DNA of 32,865 nucleotides from Prochlorococcus sp. AG-673-M19 (lineage in GTDB: Bacteria; Cyanobacteriota; Cyanobacteriia; PCC-6307; Cyanobiaceae). Position numbers and translations under genes: made by a program. Position 1 is the stretch's first letter; each line of letters begins with the position of its first letter. Of the stretch, positions 367 through 9,222 are shown piece after piece. The notes under the pieces are model-generated. The model ran no database searches and was not told the DNA's origin. It was given only the letters and a program-made list of their open reading frames with translations. The stretch covers positions 1 to 32,865 of the forward strand of contig QCTP01000013.1 in NCBI GenBank assembly GCA_003211115.1. Reading direction: 5' to 3'.

Positions 367-1437
367 CTAGATAATAAATTGTTTTTTAATTAATTGAGCT
401 AACTCTTTAAATCTAATTGAACTTTCTTTATCTGGTTCACTGACTGAAATTGGAACACCCTTATTACTCTCATTAACTAGTGTTATTTCAATTGGAATTT
501 GTGCAAGTAATGGTAAATTATTTTCCCTAGCTAAAATTTTACCACCACCTTTACCAAAAATTTCATATTTTTTATTGGGCATATCTGGAGGAATAAATAC
601 AGACATATTTTCTACTACACCCAATAACGGAACTCCAAGTTGCCTAAACATTGCTAAACCTCTTCTTGCGTCTTGCAAAGAAACTTGTTGGGGTGTTGTG
701 ACAACTATTGCACCAGAAATGGGGACTGATTGAGATAAAGATATCTGAGCATCGCCTGTACCAGGAGGTAAATCAATAACCAAAAAATCTAGATCACTCC
801 ATTCAACTTGATAAAGAAATTGCCTAATTATGCTATTTAACATTGGTCCTCTCCATATAACTGGTTGTCCTTCTTCTATCAAAAATCCCATAGAGACTAA
901 TGAGATACCGTATTTATGAATTGGTATTAATCTTTGATCACTAGCACTACCATCTGTCACTTTTGGATTTTCTTCTGTTACTCCGAGCATAGAAGGAGTA
1001 TTTGGGCCATATATATCAGCATCTAATAAACCAGTTTTTAATCCTAACTTAGCTAAAGAGCATGCAATATTAACTGCAATTGTACTTTTCCCTACCCCTC
1101 CTTTACCACTACTTATAGCAATAATATGTTTTATACCTTTTATATTCTGTAATTCAGGTCCATTACTTTCACTTTTGGAATTTGATTGAGATATGTCATT
1201 ATCTATTTCTATTTGCACATCATTAATATCATCAAATTTAAGGAGTTTATTTCTAACCTCTTGTACTATTCTCTCTCTCTGAGAATTCGCAAATGAAGGT
1301 AATGAAAGAGTAATTATTATTCTTGGTAAAACCACCCTAACATTCTTAATCCAAGCCAATTCAATTAGATTTTTCTTTGATCCATTATCTAGAATCGTTG
1401 ATAAAACATAATTCGCATCTTCGACTGTAGTCATCAA
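367..1437 (-). CDS. mrp: Mrp/ApbC-type P-loop ATPase (iron-sulfur carrier family)
   Basis: A 356-residue protein. An N-terminal MIP18/DUF59-like domain (about residues 6-78) is joined by a Ser/Asn-rich linker to a ParA/MinD-like ATPase. The ATPase has a deviant Walker A GKGGVGKST at 111-119, DADIYGPNTPSML at 139-151 and DLPPGTGDAQISL at 222-234. The family loads or carries Fe-S clusters in the cytoplasm. In many members the clusters sit on a C-terminal CxxC just after ENMS. Here the stretch after ENMS (276-295) has no cysteine, and the only cysteine I find is Cys126, so cluster binding must differ from the E. coli type. The gene leads a probable operon with rodA and is divergent from hemF. 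Confidence 0.93.
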   Translation of the reverse strand: MMTTVEDANYVLSTILDNGSKKNLIELAWIKNVRVVLPRIIITLSLPSFANSQRERIVQEVRNKLLKFDDINDVQIEIDNDISQSNSKSESNGPELQNIKGIKHIIAISSGKGGVGKSTIAVNIACSLAKLGLKTGLLDADIYGPNTPSMLGVTEENPKVTDGSASDQRLIPIHKYGISLVSMGFLIEEGQPVIWRGPMLNSIIRQFLYQVEWSDLDFLVIDLPPGTGDAQISLSQSVPISGAIVVTTPQQVSLQDARRGLAMFRQLGVPLLGVVENMSVFIPPDMPNKKYEIFGKGGGKILARENNLPLLAQIPIEITLVNESNKGVPISVSEPDKESSIRFKELAQLIKKQFII

Positions 1438-1591
1438 AATTTTTAAATGTTTGTAGTTTAGTCGACTCTATAAAAGATTAAGAACTATGTCGAACTATCA
1501 AATAATAAGAAAATTCCCCCCCTTAAAGGAAATTATAAAGGGAAACTACTAATTAACCAAAAATTAAATTCTTCAAACTAAAGTGAAATAA

Positions 1592-2620
1592 ATGTCTAAA
1601 GAACCCCCTAAAAATTCAAGAGAAAAAACTAAAAATCTCTTACTAAACTTACAAGATAATATTTGTAAAGGTTTAGAAAATACAGACGGGAAAGCAAAAT
1701 TTACTGAAGAATCGTGGCTGAGAAAAGAAGGCGGAGGGGGGAGATCAAGAGTTTTAAAAAACGGTTCTATTTTTGAGCAAGCTGGAGTGAATTTTTCAGA
1801 GGTATATGGTAACGAACTGCCTCAATCAATAATTTCACAAAGACCAGAAGCTAAAGGTCACCAATGGTTTGCAACAGGGACCTCAATGGTCTTGCATCCT
1901 AAAAATCCATTTATACCTACAGTTCATCTTAATTATCGTTATTTTGAGGCAGGACCAGTTTGGTGGTTTGGTGGAGGAGCTGATCTCACGCCATATTACC
2001 CTTATTTAACTGATGTAAGACATTTTCATAATGAGCATGGTCTTGCGTGTGAAAAAGTTAATAAAAATCTTCATAAGGTATTTAAACCATGGTGTGATGA
2101 ATATTTCTTTTTAAAACACAGAAATGAATCAAGAGGTATTGGAGGCATATTTTACGATTATCAAGATGGTTCTGGCAAAATTTACAAAGGGACCAACAAA
2201 GATGGTAATGCCTATAAGGAATCTATTAATGTTGGAGAATTAAACCTAAATTGGAATAATTTATTTTCATTAGCAGAAAATTGTGGCGGAGCTTTTCTAA
2301 ATTCATATCAACCGATAATTGAAAAAAGAGTTAAGCAAAGCTATACAAAAGAAGAGAGAGAATTTCAACTTTATAGACGAGGCAGATACGTTGAATTTAA
2401 TTTAGTTTGGGACAGAGGAACAATTTTTGGATTACAAACAAATGGTAGAACTGAATCCATATTGATGTCCTTACCTCCCTTGGCCAGATGGGAATATGGG
2501 TATAAAGCAAAAAAAGAATCCAGAGAAGATTTCCTCACTAGCATATTTACAAAACCTCAAGACTGGCAAAATGATAAAAATCTAGAAAAATTTTGTATAG
2601 AAAATAACATTTTTGATTAA
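1592..2620 (+). CDS. hemF: Oxygen-dependent coproporphyrinogen III oxidase
   Basis: A 342-residue cytoplasmic enzyme that decarboxylates coproporphyrinogen III to protoporphyrinogen IX using O2, in heme and chlorophyll synthesis. Family signatures are clear: GGGGRSRVL at about 47-55, a block around [15 protein letters not shown] near 89-103, [11 protein letters not shown] at 124-134, [10 protein letters not shown] at 181-190 and a C-terminal [16 protein letters not shown]. The length is normal for HemF (about 300-340). The start ATG follows a 154-bp region shared with the divergent mrp gene, which contains a C8 tract at 1516-1523. The gene ends 30 bp from the convergent CCB2/CCB4-like gene. 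Confidence 0.97.
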
Positions 2621-2650
2621 GTATTTTGTAACTGCTTGAGAGATTTTTTA

Positions 2651-3211
2651 CTAAATTGGTGTCTTAAACAACGAACCATCGCTTTTTAGATCAAGCCTAT
2701 CACTTAATTCATTTTCTAAAGATATTAATTCATCTCTGTGAGCTCTTAACCTCATTGAAGTCATTTCTTTATTATCATCACGATCTATCAATCTCAATTC
2801 AAATTTTTCTTCCCTAGCTGATTTCTTAGAATAAATGATTCCTGAAACAGGACCGCCAATTAAACCTAAAAGAATAGGCCACCATCCTAAAGTTGGAAAA
2901 ATTTGAATAATCACTAACCCTAAAGCACAAGATCCAAATCCTCCAAGCAAACTTAAAAATATTGCTAACAATTTGCTAGATATAACTTGTCCTTTAAATA
3001 TTAAAATTCTTTTATCAAAATCTCCACCTGTCTGTTTCCAACCTCTTAACTGAAGCCATTCATAAATAATATTTAAAACCTCAACTGGTTTTTGAGAAGA
3101 AGTTATTTCAACTATTGTTGTTCTATCTTTACTTGAAGCTCTTAGGAAAAAAAATAAACCTATTGCAAGAAGAATAGTAAGTAATAAAGTTGAATTAAGA
3201 GAATAAGTCAT
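2651..3211 (-). CDS. CCB2/CCB4-like cytochrome b6f cofactor-assembly protein (DUF2930)
   Basis: A 186-residue membrane protein. The N-terminal hydrophobic segment (about 5-24) runs into FFFLRASSKDRT, a block I recognise from the cyanobacterial DUF2930/CCB2-CCB4 family. Two closely spaced hydrophobic segments with a Gly-rich turn follow at roughly 80-127, and then a charged soluble tail. In chloroplasts CCB2 and CCB4 help attach the covalent heme c(i) to cytochrome b6; the same role is inferred for the cyanobacterial relatives. The hydrophobic pattern and the conserved start support the family call. No operon partner is apparent: it is convergent with hemF and divergent from the RNase D gene. 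Confidence 0.7.
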   Translation of the reverse strand: MTYSLNSTLLLTILLAIGLFFFLRASSKDRTTIVEITSSQKPVEVLNIIYEWLQLRGWKQTGGDFDKRILIFKGQVISSKLLAIFLSLLGGFGSCALGLVIIQIFPTLGWWPILLGLIGGPVSGIIYSKKSAREEKFELRLIDRDDNKEMTSMRLRAHRDELISLENELSDRLDLKSDGSLFKTPI

Positions 3212-3284
3212 CTATAAATTACTAATAATATTTACGAATTTTTTTATATCTAGGAACTCATCATAATATAAATTACGACTCGAT

Positions 3285-3353
3285 ATGATTCAAAATAACA
3301 TTAAATCTAATCAAGAACTTGAATCACAAATTTATGAAAATAATGTAAAGTAA
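3285..3353 (+). CDS. Possible 22-residue peptide upstream of the RNase D gene
   Basis: A short ATG-to-TAA frame of 22 codons in the 170-bp gap between the CCB2/CCB4-like gene and the RNase D gene. The peptide is polar, rich in Asn, Gln and Glu, with no motif I recognise. I see no convincing ribosome-binding site before it, and frames this short occur by chance in AT-rich DNA. It could be a leader peptide or nothing at all. Confidence 0.12.
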   Translation: MIQNNIKSNQELESQIYENNVK

Positions 3354-3381
3354 AAATTGAAATGATTTACTGTAAATACTA

Positions 3382-4023
3382 ATGAATAAAAGTGAAAAAA
3401 ATAAAAAAATAATTTTTTCCCATAATGATATAACTACTGATTTATATAATCAATATAAAAATTCATCTTATTTAGCTGTAGACACTGAAGCAATGGGCTT
3501 AATTCACGGAAGAGATCGTCTATGTTTAATACAAATATGTAATGAATTTAATGTGACTTCATGCATCAAGTTGGAACTTAAAAAGACTGAATCACCTAAT
3601 ATAAAAAAATTATTTGAAGATAATAAAATAATGAAAATATTTCATTATGCAAGATTTGATGTAGCAGCTCTAAAATGTAATCTTGAAATTAATACAAATA
3701 ACATTTTTTGTACAAAAATAGCTAGTAAATTAGCAAGGACATATACAAATAAGCATGGATTAAAAGATTTAATCCATGAATTAATTGGAACAGAATTGGA
3801 TAAAAGTTCCCAAAGTAGTGATTGGGGAAGTTCTGAAGATTTATCTAGGAAGCAAATTGATTATGCTGCTAACGACGTTAGATATCTAATTGCGGCAATG
3901 CAAAAATTAAGGATAATTCTTGAAAGAGAAGGAAGATATGAGCTAGCTCAGAAATGTTTTAGGACTATTCCAGTTCATTCTGAATTAGATATATTAAAAT
4001 TTTCCAATATATTTGAACATTAA
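3382..4023 (+). CDS. rnd: Short ribonuclease D (DEDDy 3'-5' exoribonuclease)
   Basis: A 213-residue exoribonuclease of the RNase D type, which trims 3' ends of tRNA precursors and other structured RNAs. All three exonuclease motifs are present: Exo I VDTEAMGL (Asp34, Glu36), Exo II HYARFD (Asp93) and Exo III YAANDVRYL (Tyr161, Asp165), so it is a DEDDy enzyme. The E. coli enzyme is about 375 residues and carries HRDC domains; this one stops after the catalytic domain, as is common in cyanobacteria and alphaproteobacteria. Its stop codon directly abuts the stop of the convergent 88-residue gene. Confidence 0.9.
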   Translation: MNKSEKNKKIIFSHNDITTDLYNQYKNSSYLAVDTEAMGLIHGRDRLCLIQICNEFNVTSCIKLELKKTESPNIKKLFEDNKIMKIFHYARFDVAALKCNLEINTNNIFCTKIASKLARTYTNKHGLKDLIHELIGTELDKSSQSSDWGSSEDLSRKQIDYAANDVRYLIAAMQKLRIILEREGRYELAQKCFRTIPVHSELDILKFSNIFEH

Positions 4024-4290
4024 TTAATCTTCGGTCATAAAATTATCTTCGTTTTCTAGGGTTGACATTAGTTTATCAAGTATCTTTGAAGAACTTAGTT
4101 TATTCCCATTATCCTTTTCACATAATTTCAATAGATCTTGTGCAACCTGCCTTTTTTCTTCAATAGTTTTAGAACCTTGTTTTGCAATTTGAATTTCTAC
4201 TTTTTTCTTTGCTGATGACAAACTTACACTAAGTAAGCTAGCTATTTCAGAACATATTGCTAAATATTGACGATCATTTATAGGATACAT
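4024..4290 (-). CDS. Conserved-looking small protein of unknown function
   Basis: An 88-residue soluble protein I cannot assign to a family. It has no cysteine cluster and no membrane segment. The first two thirds look helical, with alternating hydrophobic and Lys/Gln/Glu positions; the last third is acidic and ends in EDNFMTED. Normal codon use, a clean ATG and exact abutment with the RNase D stop codon argue that it is a real gene. It lies 34 bp downstream of the LpxB-related gene on the same strand and may be co-transcribed with it. Confidence 0.7.
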   Translation of the reverse strand: MYPINDRQYLAICSEIASLLSVSLSSAKKKVEIQIAKQGSKTIEEKRQVAQDLLKLCEKDNGNKLSSSKILDKLMSTLENEDNFMTED

Positions 4291-4324
4291 TAAAAACTTA
4301 AAAATCTTTTTTGATATTAGCTTA

Positions 4325-5587
4325 TTAAGCTAACAAACTTAAATTTATATAATCTACAATTTTTTTGCTTGCACCACTTTTACCCATTCTTTTCATTCCA
4401 ATTTTTACTTGTTTTATTCTACGATCTTTTTCATTTATAAGAATCTCTAAATTATCTAAAAGAGTTTTTTTATTTTCGCAAACTAATACGCTTCCTCCTA
4501 ATAATCTAGACTGTCTTTCAGCAAATGATTTTGTAAATTGAGGGCCCCCCCCAGGAAAAGAAATAGATGGGACACCAAGGCCAGTAATTTGTTCGGTAGC
4601 AGTTCCTGCATTTGACAATCCAACGCAAGCCATATTAGCCCACTCTTTAAAAGTACTTTTACCTAACAAAATATATTTTTCTTTATTTTTCCAAACTGAA
4701 TCTTCACCAACCATAAACTGAATATTATTTTCTCTTAAATAACCATTATTTTGTAAATGGCCCTCAATTGTAAAAACATTTGCATTAATACTTAGAGGCA
4801 AAAGAATAATCAAATCATTTGATAATCTTAAATCTCTTAAGCAATCCAAAAAAATTTCAAGATTGTATAGTGCTTCAGGGAATCTACTTCCTATTATTAA
4901 AATTAATCTATTGTAAATAATAATATTTGAAATTTTTTCATTTTTTTCATCTACAAAATCCATCATTGGATTACCAAAGTATTTAGCACTAATCATTTTC
5001 TTATTTAAATTATTTGCTGTAATTTCATCTCTCATTATTAAACTTTTACATCTAGAAGATCTCATGAGAAAGATTTCCCAAGGATCCCATTCAGAGCCTT
5101 TGAATTTATGATAAAAATCAGTGAATTTCCATCCTGGTCCATTACTCCACGTATGATCACTTTTAGGTGTACCGAGAAAAGCAAATTCACATTTTGAACT
5201 CCATGCAAAAAATAAAGGTAATAAATCACCCACAGCAATAATTTTGTATTGATCTTTTGACTTTCCTCTTAAAATTAAAAAGTTTTTAACAGTATCTACT
5301 AAAAATCCTGCGAACAAATCAAGAACAAATCCTTTGAAACTTTGATTACTAAAACCTCCGCTTGGTAATTCCTTTAGATAACCAATTTTGCTAAAAATAT
5401 CTGACTTAATAGAGTCAAACACATTACCGTTCCCAACTAAAGGCATTACTTCAATCCTTTTAACATTTCTTTTTTTTAATAATCTTTTTATTATTTCAAA
5501 CGCAATAATATCTTCTCCATGCCCATTACATACAATTATTAGTGAATAAGACGCGTTACTGGTAGGATCATTAGGTGATTCAATCAA
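4325..5587 (-). CDS. Lipid-A-disaccharide synthase-related glycosyltransferase-like protein
   Basis: About 420 residues. It resembles the cyanobacterial LpxB-related family (the one TIGR03492 describes), GT-B fold proteins related to lipid A disaccharide synthase; the exact substrate is not established. Near the start is VCNGHGEDIIA. Toward the C-terminus are SNAGTATEQITGLGVPSIS and FPGGGPQFTKSFAERQ, the region that in LpxB/MurG-like enzymes binds the nucleotide sugar. The open frame reaches an ATG at 5737, but that extension is only the antisense of tRNA-Cys and the element arm, so I reject it. TTG at 5587 is the first plausible initiator after the tRNA. The start remains uncertain because there is no good ATG. 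The PGGGP codons contain a G8 run (4545-4552). Confidence 0.8.
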   Translation of the reverse strand: MIESPNDPTSNASYSLIIVCNGHGEDIIAFEIIKRLLKKRNVKRIEVMPLVGNGNVFDSIKSDIFSKIGYLKELPSGGFSNQSFKGFVLDLFAGFLVDTVKNFLILRGKSKDQYKIIAVGDLLPLFFAWSSKCEFAFLGTPKSDHTWSNGPGWKFTDFYHKFKGSEWDPWEIFLMRSSRCKSLIMRDEITANNLNKKMISAKYFGNPMMDFVDEKNEKISNIIIYNRLILIIGSRFPEALYNLEIFLDCLRDLRLSNDLIILLPLSINANVFTIEGHLQNNGYLRENNIQFMVGEDSVWKNKEKYILLGKSTFKEWANMACVGLSNAGTATEQITGLGVPSISFPGGGPQFTKSFAERQSRLLGGSVLVCENKKTLLDNLEILINEKDRRIKQVKIGMKRMGKSGASKKIVDYINLSLLA

Positions 5588-5596
5588 ATCTCTATC

Positions 5597-5667
5597 GGCG
5601 GCATGGCCAAGTGGTAAGGCAGAGGATTGCAAATCCTTTATCCCCAGTTCGAATCTGGGTGCCGCCT
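5597..5667 (+). tRNA. tRNA-Cys (anticodon GCA)
   Basis: A full cloverleaf can be folded by eye. The acceptor GGCGGCA pairs with TGCCGCC, the D arm is GCC...GGC, the anticodon arm GAGGA/TCCTT has loop TTGCAAA (anticodon GCA), and the T arm CCCAG/CTGGG has loop TTCGAAT. The discriminator is T (U73), as expected for tRNA-Cys. CCA is not encoded. The 3' part from 5648 onward is repeated exactly at 7470, so this gene is the apparent attachment site of the neighbouring element, which has restored an intact tRNA 3' end. Confidence 0.97.
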
Positions 5668-5674
5668 TCTTTAA
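5648..5674 (+). repeat. att core, tRNA-side copy (27 bp)
   Basis: This 27-base stretch, TTCGAATCTGGGTGCCGCCT followed by TCTTTAA, covers the T-loop, the 3' T stem, the acceptor stem and the discriminator of tRNA-Cys plus 7 bases. It recurs exactly at 7470-7496. Direct repeats of a tRNA 3' end are the usual footprint of tyrosine-recombinase integration. Confidence 0.9.
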
Positions 5675-5728
5675 TTTTGATACTAAATCCCCTATAAACC
5701 CTTCCAAACACTTGAGTTTTGTATACTT

Positions 5729-5759
5729 GTTATACATTTCTTAGGGAAAATTTAGTCAA
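5729..5759 (-). promoter_or_regulatory. Leftward promoter-like sequence with dyad, arm A
   Basis: On the minus strand TTGACT (5759-5754) is followed after 19 bases by TATAAC (5734-5729), close to sigma-70 consensus though with a long spacer. The -10 overlaps a perfect 6-bp inverted repeat TGTATA-N5-TATACA (5720-5736), an operator-like layout. It would transcribe across tRNA-Cys in antisense into the LpxB-related gene. The same elements occur with identical spacing in arm B. Confidence 0.45.
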
Positions 5760-5765
5760 ATTCTT

Positions 5766-5792
5766 GGTCGGCAAGTGGTCGGCAAGTTGACC
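5766..5792 (+). repeat. Tandem GGTCGGCAAGT arm motif, copy A
   Basis: Two head-to-tail copies of the 11-mer GGTCGGCAAGT, then TGACC, so the outer GGTC/GACC also form a short inverted repeat. It begins 91 bases after the att core, exactly as in arm B. The layout resembles arm-type recombinase binding sites; the binding protein is unknown. Confidence 0.6.
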
Positions 5793-5976
5793 ACATTTTC
5801 ATTCCAAAATATTTGTAATAATTTCATTATCTCACTTGCTGACTACAGAGGAAAATTTATAACAACATAACAAAAATCTTTTAGAAGAAAAATAGTCTTT
5901 ATTTAAACCTTTCTTTAGCACCAATAAGGTAACAATAAGTTTTCAACTAATTTACAAAAATTGGACCAATCACTTA

Positions 5977-7086
5977 TTAAAAGGAAAAGAAGTTATTGCA
6001 GGATGGATTCCATAACTTATCTATTTTTATCAATAATTCATTTGCTTTTTTATAATAGGGATCTTTATTGGTAACTCTGTTTAATGAGTTTATTGCCTTA
6101 CACATTCCGTATCCTTTAATAGATGCAATTCTATAAAAAGTTAAACCTAAGGCATAATTAGCACCTTTTAAATTTTTATCTAACTTTATCGCTTTCTTAT
6201 ACCAATATTTCGCATTTTTATAGTCGTTACCTCCAAATTCCAATTGACCCTCATAAAAATAAAGTCTTGCTTTTAAAGCATTTTTATCATTTGGATTAGT
6301 CATTAGTTGTATTCTTTGTCTACTAGATTCTGGGAGTTTTGGTCGCGAAATAAACTCATAACCCATCAAGATCAAAATGATGGCAAACAATGGGTATACT
6401 GATTTTTTTAAAATAACTACAAGGTTGTTTATTGTATTTTTTCGTATTTTTTCAATCTGCAAATTCTCACTTTCAATTAGTTGAGAAATATACTCTTTAA
6501 GTTCTATTTTTTGTTTTTGTAATTTTTTTACAAGATTCTCATTATGTAATTCCGCTCTTCTAATTGATTCTTCGACCTCTTTAATAGCATTTTTATTATG
6601 TAGTTTTGCTTTCCTAATTCCTTCTTCAACCTCTTTGATCAATTTCTCATTATGTAAGTTTATTGTTTGAATTACATCTTCTTGATATTGTTCAAAATTT
6701 TTATGATCTAATGCCCATCTTTTCCATGTCCCCCAGTCTTGAGCAGCACTATTAACTTGATTAGAACGATTTGCCATAAACATAGTACTTGAAATATTCA
6801 AAGTGCTTCCTTCTCTTGCAAATAATGCGCTTACAGTTGATAAAGTATCCCAACCATTCCATGATCCTACAGACCTAGGTTTTACATTCACTTCATATTG
6901 CCTTAAAAATTCGATTATTATTTGATCTACTGAAGGTTGTTCTAATAAAACAACATCATTTAAAGAAGGTACCCTTATAGTGTTTGCATCTTTTAAAGAT
7001 GGCACTTTCGCAGGTCTCAACTCAGGTTTTTTTGCGTACAACAAACGTCTTTCCCGTTCATTAAAAATATCTGAATCTTTCAACAT
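5977..7086 (-). CDS. Element cargo: coiled-coil, single-pass membrane protein with TPR
   Basis: A 369-residue protein I cannot name. The first 140 residues are soluble, with two VPSLxD repeats (28-33, 39-44) and a Trp-rich stretch. Residues 144-191 hold three near-copies of an 18-residue helical repeat starting LHNxx, the first two being very similar, in a long coiled coil that reaches about 215. A hydrophobic segment at 231-248 is the likely membrane span. Residues about 272-305 form a TPR-like unit (YFYEGQLEFGGNDYKNAKYW and the following helix), with a weaker second one after it. This is the only clear gene of the tRNA-Cys element. The features suggest a membrane-anchored scaffold or sensor; I see no enzymatic motif. 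The promoter-like sequence in arm B points toward it. Confidence 0.8.
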   Translation of the reverse strand: MLKDSDIFNERERRLLYAKKPELRPAKVPSLKDANTIRVPSLNDVVLLEQPSVDQIIIEFLRQYEVNVKPRSVGSWNGWDTLSTVSALFAREGSTLNISSTMFMANRSNQVNSAAQDWGTWKRWALDHKNFEQYQEDVIQTINLHNEKLIKEVEEGIRKAKLHNKNAIKEVEESIRRAELHNENLVKKLQKQKIELKEYISQLIESENLQIEKIRKNTINNLVVILKKSVYPLFAIILILMGYEFISRPKLPESSRQRIQLMTNPNDKNALKARLYFYEGQLEFGGNDYKNAKYWYKKAIKLDKNLKGANYALGLTFYRIASIKGYGMCKAINSLNRVTNKDPYYKKANELLIKIDKLWNPSCNNFFSF

Positions 7087-7222
7087 ACAAAAACTTATCA
7101 GTCGTCTGATTATATATTTTAATCTTTAATTTGAATAATGATTTCTCACATTAAATATAGAAATTGATTTAAATCCACTCTAGATCAACTTTTAAACCAA
7201 ATTTTCTATACTTAATTCCTTT

Positions 7223-7309
7223 TTATTTTCCGCTATGTTTAAGCGTTTCCAGTTCGAGTTCATTGTCAGTTTTTGGGTTCCCACAATAGGGACAATTTAG
7301 AGGGTTCAT
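7223..7309 (-). CDS. Possible 28-residue CxxC peptide in the element
   Basis: An ATG-to-TAA frame encoding MNPLNCPYCGNPKTDNELEL and 8 further residues. CPYCG is a typical zinc-knuckle half, but with one CxxC it would need a partner or dimer. The ATG is 6 bases after an inverted copy of the arm motif (GTCGGCAAGTTGA, 7328-7316). It lies between the arm B promoter-like sequence and the TPR gene, all on the minus strand. It could instead be the remnant of a longer zinc-ribbon protein. Confidence 0.35.
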   Translation of the reverse strand: MNPLNCPYCGNPKTDNELELETLKHSGK

Positions 7310-7389
7310 TTAATTTCAACTTGCCGACTAAGAAGCAATGTTAAATGTTAATTAGTGGGTTAATTTCCTAGTTAGATATTATTAACTCT

Positions 7390-7411
7390 GGTCAGCAAGT
7401 GGTCGGCAACT
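7390..7411 (+). repeat. Arm motif on the other side of the att core
   Basis: GGTCAGCAAGT followed by GGTCGGCAACT, each one mismatch from the tandem 11-mer of the arms. It ends 58 bases before the 7470 att core, so this core has motif pairs on both sides. A further inverted copy, GTCGGCAAGTTGA, lies on the minus strand at 7328-7316. Confidence 0.55.
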
Positions 7412-7469
7412 TAATAAAATACCCCTCAAAACCCCCTGTTTTAGGCACTTTTTAGACTATTATGTCCAC

Positions 7470-7496
7470 TTCGAATCTGGGTGCCGCCTTCTTTAA
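7470..7496 (+). repeat. att core, distal copy (27 bp)
   Basis: Exact copy of 5648-5674. The sequence before it (GTCCAC) does not continue the tRNA, so this is a truncated tRNA-Cys 3' end and not a gene. It marks the far boundary of the 1.8-kb element. Confidence 0.9.
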
Positions 7497-7550
7497 ATTA
7501 GACACAAAATTCCCTATAAACCCTTCTAAAAACTTAAGTTTTGTATACTT

Positions 7551-7581
7551 GTTATACATTTATTAGGGGAAATTTAGTCAA
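7551..7581 (-). promoter_or_regulatory. Leftward promoter-like sequence with dyad, arm B
   Basis: TTGACT (7581-7576), a 19-base spacer and TATAAC (7556-7551) on the minus strand, with the TGTATA-N5-TATACA dyad over the -10. It points into the element toward the 28-residue frame and the TPR gene, for which I find no better promoter. Several spacer bases differ from arm A while both hexamers and the dyad are unchanged. Confidence 0.45.
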
Positions 7582-7662
7582 ATTCTTGGTCGGCAAGTGG
7601 TCGGCAAGTTGACCACATTTTCATTCTAAAATATTTGTAATAATTTTATTATCTCACTTGCT

Positions 7663-7958
7663 AACTTAAGATCAAATTTACTTAATACAAAAAGAATTTG
7701 AAATTTTTCACTACTATTTTCACTACTATTATTTACAAAAAATGAATTGTTAATCCATAAGTTTGCATCAATTTAAATATATTTATGGAATTAATTGAAA
7801 ATCCAATAGATTAATTGTTGATGTATAAGAAATTAAAGACTAAGAAATATGTTTCATTAAATCTGGATTGTTTGATGAAACTATACTTTAACAAATTTAT
7901 AAACAATTTTTTTAAATGCTAGATTTTCAATATAAGTATTTTTTAGTAACCGAATCTA
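7663..7958. other. Very AT-rich gap after arm B, no gene seen
   Basis: About 300 bases between the end of the repeat arm and the formyltransferase gene. It contains a tandem duplication of the 12-mer TTTTCACTACTA (7705-7716, 7717-7728). The only open frames are short and lysine/asparagine-rich, with no motif. It may be the eroded interior of an older element and should also hold the promoter of the formyltransferase gene. Confidence 0.5.
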
Positions 7959-8984
7959 ATGCAAATAAAACTTGATAAAGTTGAAAAAATTATATTACTG
8001 GGTGGAGGTCGACTACTAATTGGATTAGCACGATGGTGTAAATGTAATGGAGACCAATTATTTATTGTCACTTCTCCTCGCCACGCCGAAGAAATAATTG
8101 AATCAGGAAAAACATTTGCAGAGATTTTATCTCTTGAAAACATCTCATTTAAAGTTGTTGAAGAAATTTCTTCCAATGAAGTCAAAAATTATCTAGGAAA
8201 TTTGAGTAATGCTTTTTGCCTCTCACTTGGTGCTGCTTGGATATTTAACAAAGAAACAATCAAAACTTTATTCAAAGAAAAATTATTTAATCTTCATGGG
8301 ACCAAATTGCCTCAAAATCGAGGAGGGGGAGGATTCACTTGGCAAATCTTGATGGGTCATAGGTTTGGGTTTTGCCAGTTACATTTAGTTGATAGTGGGG
8401 TTGATACAGGTGAAATTGTTAAAACAAGTGAATTTTTATATCCGCCATCATGTCGAATACCTAGGGAATATGAAAGTTTCTCTTACGAAAAGAATTTGAA
8501 TTTTATGATTGAATTTATTAAAGAAATAAAACAGTTTGGTTTAAATGAAAAAACCACTAAACAACCAGAATATTTTTCTAGTTATTTCCCAAGATTAAAT
8601 ACCTTAGAGAATGGATGGATTAATTGGGATGAAAATATTTTGGACTTAGAGAAATTTATCTGTGCTTTTGATGAACCATATGCCGGTGCGAAATGCTTAT
8701 GGAAAGAAATAACTGTAACTATAAAAAAAGTCTGTGTAGATTTTTCAGACCAAAATTTTCATCCCTACCAAGTTGGAATCGTTTATAGAAAAAATAAAAA
8801 TTGGTTATGTGTTTGCGCGAACGGCGGATCTTTGATTATTGAAAAAATCAATGATGAAAACGGATTATCAATTTTAAAAGACATTAAAGAGGGTGATCGA
8901 TTGATTACCAATACAAATGCAATACAAAGTAGGTTAAATAGAGTTATCTATACACCAAAAGGAATTAAGAATAACTTCAATTAA
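7959..8984 (+). CDS. Formyltransferase, probably acting on an amino sugar
   Basis: A 341-residue protein of the Fmt/N10-formyl-tetrahydrofolate formyltransferase family. The catalytic Asn-x-His is NLHGTKLPQNRGGGG (Asn111, His113), and the catalytic Asp lies in DSGVDTGEI (Asp149). After the catalytic domain (to about 200) there is a linker and a beta-rich C-terminal domain (about 255-330) like that of Fmt. It departs from Met-tRNA formyltransferase around the nucleotide-binding start (LLGGGRLLIGLARW), so a sugar N-formyltransferase of surface-glycan synthesis is more likely. No nucleotide-sugar genes lie beside it. It sits just outside the tRNA-Cys element and may be older cargo. The family is sure; the substrate is not. 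Confidence 0.8.
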   Translation: MQIKLDKVEKIILLGGGRLLIGLARWCKCNGDQLFIVTSPRHAEEIIESGKTFAEILSLENISFKVVEEISSNEVKNYLGNLSNAFCLSLGAAWIFNKETIKTLFKEKLFNLHGTKLPQNRGGGGFTWQILMGHRFGFCQLHLVDSGVDTGEIVKTSEFLYPPSCRIPREYESFSYEKNLNFMIEFIKEIKQFGLNEKTTKQPEYFSSYFPRLNTLENGWINWDENILDLEKFICAFDEPYAGAKCLWKEITVTIKKVCVDFSDQNFHPYQVGIVYRKNKNWLCVCANGGSLIIEKINDENGLSILKDIKEGDRLITNTNAIQSRLNRVIYTPKGIKNNFN

Positions 8985-9078: not shown

Positions 9079-9222
9079 ATGAGTGGAGACTTTGAGACAC
9101 TAGAAATCAATCAGCCAAAGATCTCATATATTCATAAGAGATCAGAGAATAAGACAGAATGGTTAGATGAAATGATCAATAAAATTGAAGATATGAAAAA
9201 CAAAATATCCGAAGTTGCATAA
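9079..9222 (+). CDS. Small acidic/basic helical protein (47 residues)
   Basis: An ATG-to-TAA frame of 47 codons. An AGGGGA element 5 bases before the ATG is a good ribosome-binding site for this genome, which is why I accept it despite its length. The protein starts MSGDFETLEINQPKISYIHK and ends in a Lys/Glu/Met-rich amphipathic helix; there is no cysteine or membrane segment. I do not recognise a family. A weak hairpin follows the stop codon. Confidence 0.5.
   Translation: MSGDFETLEINQPKISYIHKRSENKTEWLDEMINKIEDMKNKISEVA

Follow-up and report, generated by a model that had tools for sequence, protein, structure and literature searches.

An integrase-less single-gene insertion at tRNA-Cys in Prochlorococcus with the attachment ends of recombinase-bearing elements

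Introduction

A novel integrase family has been described from Prochlorococcus and Synechococcus (cluster158946; PMC10187409). It lies near tRNA-Cys or tRNA-Phe, is distinct from the integrases of tycheposons, often occurs with a small serine recombinase, and has a mechanism of movement that is given as unknown. What that paper sets out on the family includes no mention of exact att boundaries, arm repeats or integrase-less derivatives. Islands without integration modules and CIMEs are already known elsewhere, as described in PMC5704250 and PMC3146451; among open-licence papers, covered by titles and abstracts, none describes such cassettes at the tRNA-Cys site.

Here, we analyze an insertion of this kind, element 1, in a stretch of 32,865 nucleotides from Prochlorococcus sp. 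AG-673-M19 (contig QCTP01000013.1), which as a whole we call the window. Element 1 shares host group and tRNA-Cys target with the integrase elements portrayed in PMC10187409, and its att layout is that of recombinase-bearing elements at the same site, which further resemble the published family in a resolvase-domain protein (genomes G155 and G173) and, in some members, a tRNA-Phe-type core; it differs in having neither recombinase. Like a CIME, as PMC5704250 presents them, element 1 keeps attL and attR, has no integration or transfer genes and stands in tandem at one site, whereas we propose movement in trans rather than in cis, its size is that of a single gene, and no recombinase gene was seen in the adjacent element 2. 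The ssrA islands of Dehalococcoides also have short repeats of the 3' end of the target gene, tandem islands, and 15 islands without integration modules; however, serine recombinases serve there and a tyrosine recombinase here, and arm sequences do not figure in the account given (PMC3146451). Integron cassettes and CALIN, as outlined in PMC11389934, are likewise small cargo units in arrays with a recombinase supplied elsewhere, while element 1 has a tRNA 3' end and double arm sites, and the recombinase at its site is not annotated as an integron integrase. To the autonomous element, whose mode of movement PMC10187409 gives as unknown, our analysis adds the attachment core, empty sites and arm sites.

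An insertion between two copies of the tRNA-Cys 3' end

The features of element 1 are as follows.

5597..5667, plus strand: tRNA-Cys(gca), found by ARAGORN; the integration target, with its 3' end as left core
5648..5674, plus strand: left att core, a 27-bp exact direct repeat made of 20 nt of the tRNA 3' end plus 7
5648..7469, plus strand: element 1, 1822 bp from core to core; the site is empty in 31/81 loci
5977..7086, minus strand: cargo gene, 369 aa, with a weak TPR match in its C-terminal part
7316..7334, minus strand: one inverted and imperfect occurrence of the arm motif, close to the right end (inverted repeats I4 and I7)
7470..7496, plus strand: att core shared by element 1 (its right core) and element 2 (its left core)

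The preliminary description of this DNA had noted that the end of tRNA-Cys plus 7 bases recurs exactly at 7470. Indeed, TTCGAATCTGGGTGCCGCCTTCTTTAA at 5648-5674 has a second exact copy at 7470-7496, and the pair is nested in a longer ungapped direct repeat (5638-5870 against 7460-7692; 233 nt, 88%). Because the longer repeat spans past the second core, the flank there repeats the left arm. A chance origin of the second core is very unlikely: in 1200 Markov-1 resamples of about 2.5 kb each, drawn from 12 loci, the 18-nt core had no plus-strand match at up to 3 mismatches.

The 369-aa ORF is the only one of at least 60 aa that lies wholly between the cores, and ORF and Pfam searches of element 1 turned up no recombinase or transposase domain, which bears out the proposed content of one cargo gene and no such enzyme. 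The stated lack of terminal inverted repeats needs amending in view of the imperfect inverted arm-motif copy at 7316-7334.

Searches with the cargo gave no functional clue in Pfam, 300 family genomes or viral contigs. Its Pfam matches are to weak TPR models only, its relatives among the 300 family genomes are weak partial matches in four genomes besides the window's own (at best 31% over ~130 aa), and none of 72 pattern matches in viral contigs was confirmed. With regard to a phage satellite, element 1 holds one TPR-like gene and no packaging or capsid-related gene, and its PHROGs matches are weak, above E 0.01. The viral contigs yielded no confirmed relative of the cargo, core, arm motif or recombinase, and the phage records none of the recombinase; two phage records that matched by sequence were discarded, their alignments covering the tRNA only.

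Empty and filled sites in other Prochlorococcus genomes

A query of the tRNA-Cys and arm region matched 152 of 200 genus genomes, and 80 of these plus the window's own provide 81 loci for comparison. The loci are a non-random set: the first 20 were nearly all picked for similarity to the window arm, and the other 60 by hand, mostly on long contigs. We call a site empty if the host flank of G172 directly follows the tRNA, and attR-bounded if a second core precedes the next host gene. By these definitions, the 81 loci fall into 31 empty sites, 19 with attR (the second core) and 31 that are neither. Related genomes thus do not all carry an insertion at this tRNA. The preliminary description had expected an empty site to read tRNA, one core and then the flank that begins at 7497. 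The tRNA, the single core and a flank are found as expected, the last being host flank; it is not the 7497 sequence, because that is the left arm of another element. In several filled sites, the same host flank resumes right after the last core (G006, G153, G060, G023, G029 and G173).

The attR-bounded units are mostly small. Seventeen of these 19 precisely bounded insertions in the loci examined, the window included, are without the recombinase and measure 197-2269 bp, while the other two carry it beside attR (7131 bp in G155; 9508 bp in G173). A third carrier, the 9.5-kb element of G511, comes in addition to the 19. Here, "without the recombinase" means no tblastn match to 19 aligned family sequences; in a Pfam scan of 60 ORFs at these loci, matches are listed for the best 25 of 59 families, so these units may contain recombinases of other kinds. 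At the lower end of the size range, G153 (L045) has a 197-bp unit consisting of ends only with one arm pair, and G060 (L050) has a tandem whose unit between the second and third cores is ~190 bp long and shares its arm pair exactly with the recombinase carrier G155. These two loci show that ends-only units occur at tRNA-Cys.

Matched arm-type sites

Two tandem sites flank the cargo inside the cores.

5766..5787, plus strand: left arm-type site, GGTCGGCAAGT twice in tandem
7390..7411, plus strand: right arm-type site, GGTCAGCAAGT GGTCGGCAACT, ahead of the right core by 80 bp

A left tandem was scored where an 11-bp unit recurs with at least 9 of 11 positions matching and the first unit starts with GG. 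It starts 159-170 nt from the tRNA start in 31/90 loci, and it is found in 0/31 empty sites versus 16/19 attR-bounded elements. The unit varies among elements: it is GGTCGGCAAGT in the window, GGATGGTAAGT in G060, G187 and G511, and others elsewhere. For the right side, 21 attR sites were compared, namely those of the 19 elements plus G511 and the second one of G060, and 17 of them have a tandem pair 79-82 bp ahead of the core. Of the remaining four, G023, G029 and G109 have none, and the repeat in G129, at 44 bp, is unrelated.

Left and right arms match each other within elements. Taking the best match in a 40-nt right region, 15 elements average 0.97 mismatches of 11 between their two arms, versus 3.01 when arms are permuted, and 0 of 20,000 permutations were as good. 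The 15 are drawn from 20 attR-bounded elements (the 19 and G511) after dropping G023, G029, G109 and G129, in which no right tandem was read, and G153, which has a single pair. The match also holds when each close group is represented by a single element (11 elements), and for the 12 elements that lack the recombinase. An earlier version of the comparison, in which several elements were in poor phase, gave 7/20,000 for the 15 elements and 232/20,000 for the 11-element subset.

The window's own arm pair occurs at up to 2 mismatches in 9 of 265 genus genomes, adjoining tRNA-Cys in all nine, and the backwards control had no match.

Recombinase-bearing elements at the same tRNA

In arm spacing, arm pairs and core, the att ends of element 1 are of the kind found in G155, G173 and G511, each of which has a tRNA-Cys core, arms, and a recombinase beside attR. 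The proposal in the preliminary description, an integrase-less tRNA-Cys insertion that would need a recombinase in trans, is supported by these elements together with the empty sites. In G289 and G362, two such elements from other genera, tRNA-Cys marks one end, while the opposite end holds the core, the arms and the recombinase; only in G289 could a left tandem resembling the right one be read.

The recombinases of G173 and G155 (461 and 462 aa) are 47% identical, and neither has a Pfam match. Pfam, PHROGs, PDB sequence and NCBIfam searches with the G173 protein returned nothing usable, and the identification was made from catalytic residues and fold comparison. R285, K314, R394, H395 and Y432, which we take to be the catalytic residues of tyrosine recombinases, are invariant in an alignment of 19 recombinase sequences, and the best matches of an AlphaFold model (mean pLDDT 84, pTM 0.55) are Tn1549 Int, XerH, XerA and lambda Int.

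Among 300 family genomes, 32 encode homologues; within the genus, 9 of 266 genomes do (two partial, one with an internal stop). Eighteen homologues in other genera have a core upstream near the gene, tRNA-Cys-type in 10 and tRNA-Phe-type in 8, and 16 of the 18 have a tandem 11-bp pair before it. Within the genus, the family members of G021 (L178) and G084 (L179) lie beside tRNA-Phe with a different core. G155 and G173 each also encode a resolvase-domain protein. By host, tRNAs and neighbours, rather than by sequence comparison, the recombinase appears to be the tRNA-Cys/tRNA-Phe family (cluster158946) as characterized in PMC10187409.

The search yielded no cognate helper bearing the arm sequence of the window: the nine arm-pair genomes (of 265) and the nine recombinase genomes (of 266) do not overlap, and the recombinase has no match in the window's own assembly. 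Since many assemblies are incomplete, the window's own being 66.7% complete, this absence is weak evidence. In the genome of the window, Pfam Phage_integrase has a single match, to a 208-codon Xer-like frame (L058; contig C27, 896-1402), which falls below NCBIfam cut-offs and outside the tRNA-Cys recombinase family.

An antisense host frame that runs into the arm

Antisense to the tRNA, a host reading frame enters the left arm.

4325..5737, minus strand: host lipid-A-disaccharide synthase-related gene (TIGR03492), with its frame antisense through the tRNA into the left arm of the element
5668..5737, minus strand: left-arm segment that appears to code for the first residues of the antisense TIGR03492 ORF; frame open in 81/81 loci, with codon periodicity

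The TIGR03492 model covers residues 68-465 of 470. In all 81 loci, the antisense frame is open through the tRNA and ~900 nt of the gene; past the tRNA, in the arm or flank, it stays open for 24 codons or more. Minus-frame variability is concentrated at third positions in elements (p = 2.6e-5) and in empty sites (p = 0.0083), versus 0.71 and 0.16 beyond the segment. With an open frame and codon-like variation in the arm, every inserted element appears to provide the TIGR03492 gene with a new 5' coding end. One result counts against a coding reading: in the empty sites, the plus-strand frame that shares third positions has a pN/pS as low (0.27 vs 0.34). This plus-strand frame is stop-free in 1 of 31 empty loci, compared with 31 of 31 for the minus frame. 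Conservation of the frame through DNA-binding constraint only was also considered; the third-position variability argues for coding.

A second element after the right core

The sequence to the right of 7497 is not plain host flank; another element's left arm comes first, then a formyltransferase-like gene.

7489..7692, plus strand: left arm of element 2, with arm sites at 7588-7609; 95% identical to the G025 left arm over 207 nt (part of the core included)
7959..8984, plus strand: formyltransferase-like gene, the probable cargo of element 2, for which a right core was not found

Among the 81 loci, the formyltransferase-like gene occurs at the tRNA-Cys site only in the window, plus as a fragment in G051, where one arm unit and the gene fragment are kept. 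As no right core precedes the next conserved gene, we read element 2 as eroded and the window as holding a tandem of two elements. Farther right, a 47-aa ORF at 9079-9222 is matched in G025, on the downstream side, and by tblastn in none of the other 79 loci.

Shared ends around different cargo

The right end of element 1 is 98.75% identical to that of G006 over 160 bp and the left arm 88% over 168 nt, compared with 76.3% for the host gene beside the tRNA. Between these ends the two cargoes have no match by blastn or tblastn; both cargo proteins have TPR-like repeats, and the cargoes may be of a similar kind though they do not align. G025 has a left arm 94% and a right end 86% identical to those of the window around a non-matching cargo; with a host gene at 85.7%, this pair says little about recent movement. 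The first unit of G060, which is without the recombinase, and the carrier G511 are 80% similar at the left end and 77% at the right. Two pairs share more than ends: G101 and G038 are 99.0% identical over 1579 bp, G101 being without a recognised attR, and the interiors of G064 and G168 are 98.3% identical, while the host gene stands at 93.2% in either pair.

Proposed movement in trans and its alternatives

Taking together the att anatomy, the empty and filled sites, the helpers with the same anatomy and the shared ends with different cargo, we think it likely that element 1 is a non-autonomous single-gene derivative of a picocyanobacterial tRNA-Cys element with a divergent tyrosine recombinase, probably moved in trans. 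From the anatomy of the ends and their comparison across loci, we infer recombination in trans and, with it, a circle, arm-site binding and transfer from cell to cell. Element 1 keeps a full pair of ends, namely the core from the tRNA, a tandem of 11-bp arm sites at either end and the inverted site near the right end, with cargo in the place where helpers carry the recombinase. At some time, a helper recombinase whose arm specificity fits would have shared the cell with the cassette; it would bind the arms and cores of the cassette, excise it as a circle and insert such circles at the tRNA-Cys 3' end. The tRNA would be restored at each insertion, with the left arm supplying a new in-frame 5' end for the antisense host gene, and repeated insertion at the first core could build tandem arrays such as the one in the window. 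Against this reading stand the lack of any helper with the window's arm sequence, the 31 of 81 loci that are neither empty nor attR-bounded and the 4 of 21 attR sites without a right tandem.

The alternative that survives best is a dead remnant, in which an autonomous element lost its recombinase by deletion and has decayed in place with no further movement; we consider this unlikely, though it deserves weight. Decay is common at the site, given that 31 of 81 loci are not empty and yet show no recognised attR, and both G051, reduced to one arm unit and a gene fragment, and element 2, lacking a right core, are examples that a remnant would resemble. Element 1 itself, however, has arm pairs and cores both intact, and attR-bounded units without and with the recombinase stand at 17 to 2 in these non-randomly chosen loci. 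Identity also runs counter to decay in place: the right end shared with G006 (98.75%) is far closer than the host gene (76%), and the G038-G101 block stands at 99.0% against 93.2% for the host gene, where G101 is without a recognised attR.

Homologous recombination between resident islands, through arms, tRNA and flank, could instead have swapped the cargo, with site-specific recombination confined to the distant past. Window-related left arms up to 94% identical occur elsewhere and would offer homology for crossover, and the 197-bp unit of G153, with its one arm pair, is what recombination between left and right arms would leave. Such exchange would scramble the arms, yet they match within elements; moreover, the high-identity block shared with G006 is the right end only, bordered on one side by non-matching cargo and on the other by a second left arm in the window versus host flank in G006. 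We find this explanation improbable.

Descent from tycheposons, which the preliminary description had raised, finds no support here, and a tycheposon relic seems very improbable to us. Tycheposons have seven target tRNAs. A tRNA site in Prochlorococcus and the habit of carrying cargo are common to both; element 1, however, has no recombinase and is 1822 bp long, against tycheposons of 4-200 kb that carry a tyrosine recombinase, as PMC10872708 reports them, and the recombinase of the elements with matching att layout appears to belong to the family that PMC10187409, in what it says of the two, separates from tycheposon integrases. If the tRNA end had simply been duplicated locally in tandem, with no att function, the two direct copies of the 233-nt segment would be accounted for, but this is exceedingly improbable in view of the empty sites at the same tRNA, a core that ends numerous cassettes of different kinds, and the fixed spacing of the arm sites.

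A possible cassette system and other cargo at the tRNA-Cys site

More tentatively, element 1 may belong to a tRNA-anchored cassette system in Prochlorococcus. One- to few-gene units docked at tRNA-Cys would outnumber their helpers, their matched 11-bp arms would be the key that fits one helper recombinase among several, and each unit would replace the 5' coding end of the host gene antisense to the tRNA; with the tRNA as its docking site, the system would be integron-like in effect, with unrelated machinery. The core, empty sites and arm sites, together with the 17 of 19 bounded insertions that lack the recombinase, suggest a concrete way, open to testing, in which single genes could travel among streamlined ocean genomes, and the matched-arm rule would predict which helper moves which cassette.

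G145 (L047) has, at 429-6587 from the tRNA, a 6-kb biosynthetic block (DAHP synthase-like, methyltransferase-like, and glycosyl and cytidylyl transferase-like by sequence), for which attR was not found. Among the matches listed, six ORFs at the site (in G003, G023, G029, G109, G130 and G157) match Poly_export/SLBB (Wza-like). This cargo is 75-89% identical across the six loci versus 93-94% for the host genes; because it is more diverged than they are, shared cargo does not always mean recent movement. Readable arms differ between some of these Wza-like loci, suggesting repeated capture of an envelope function.
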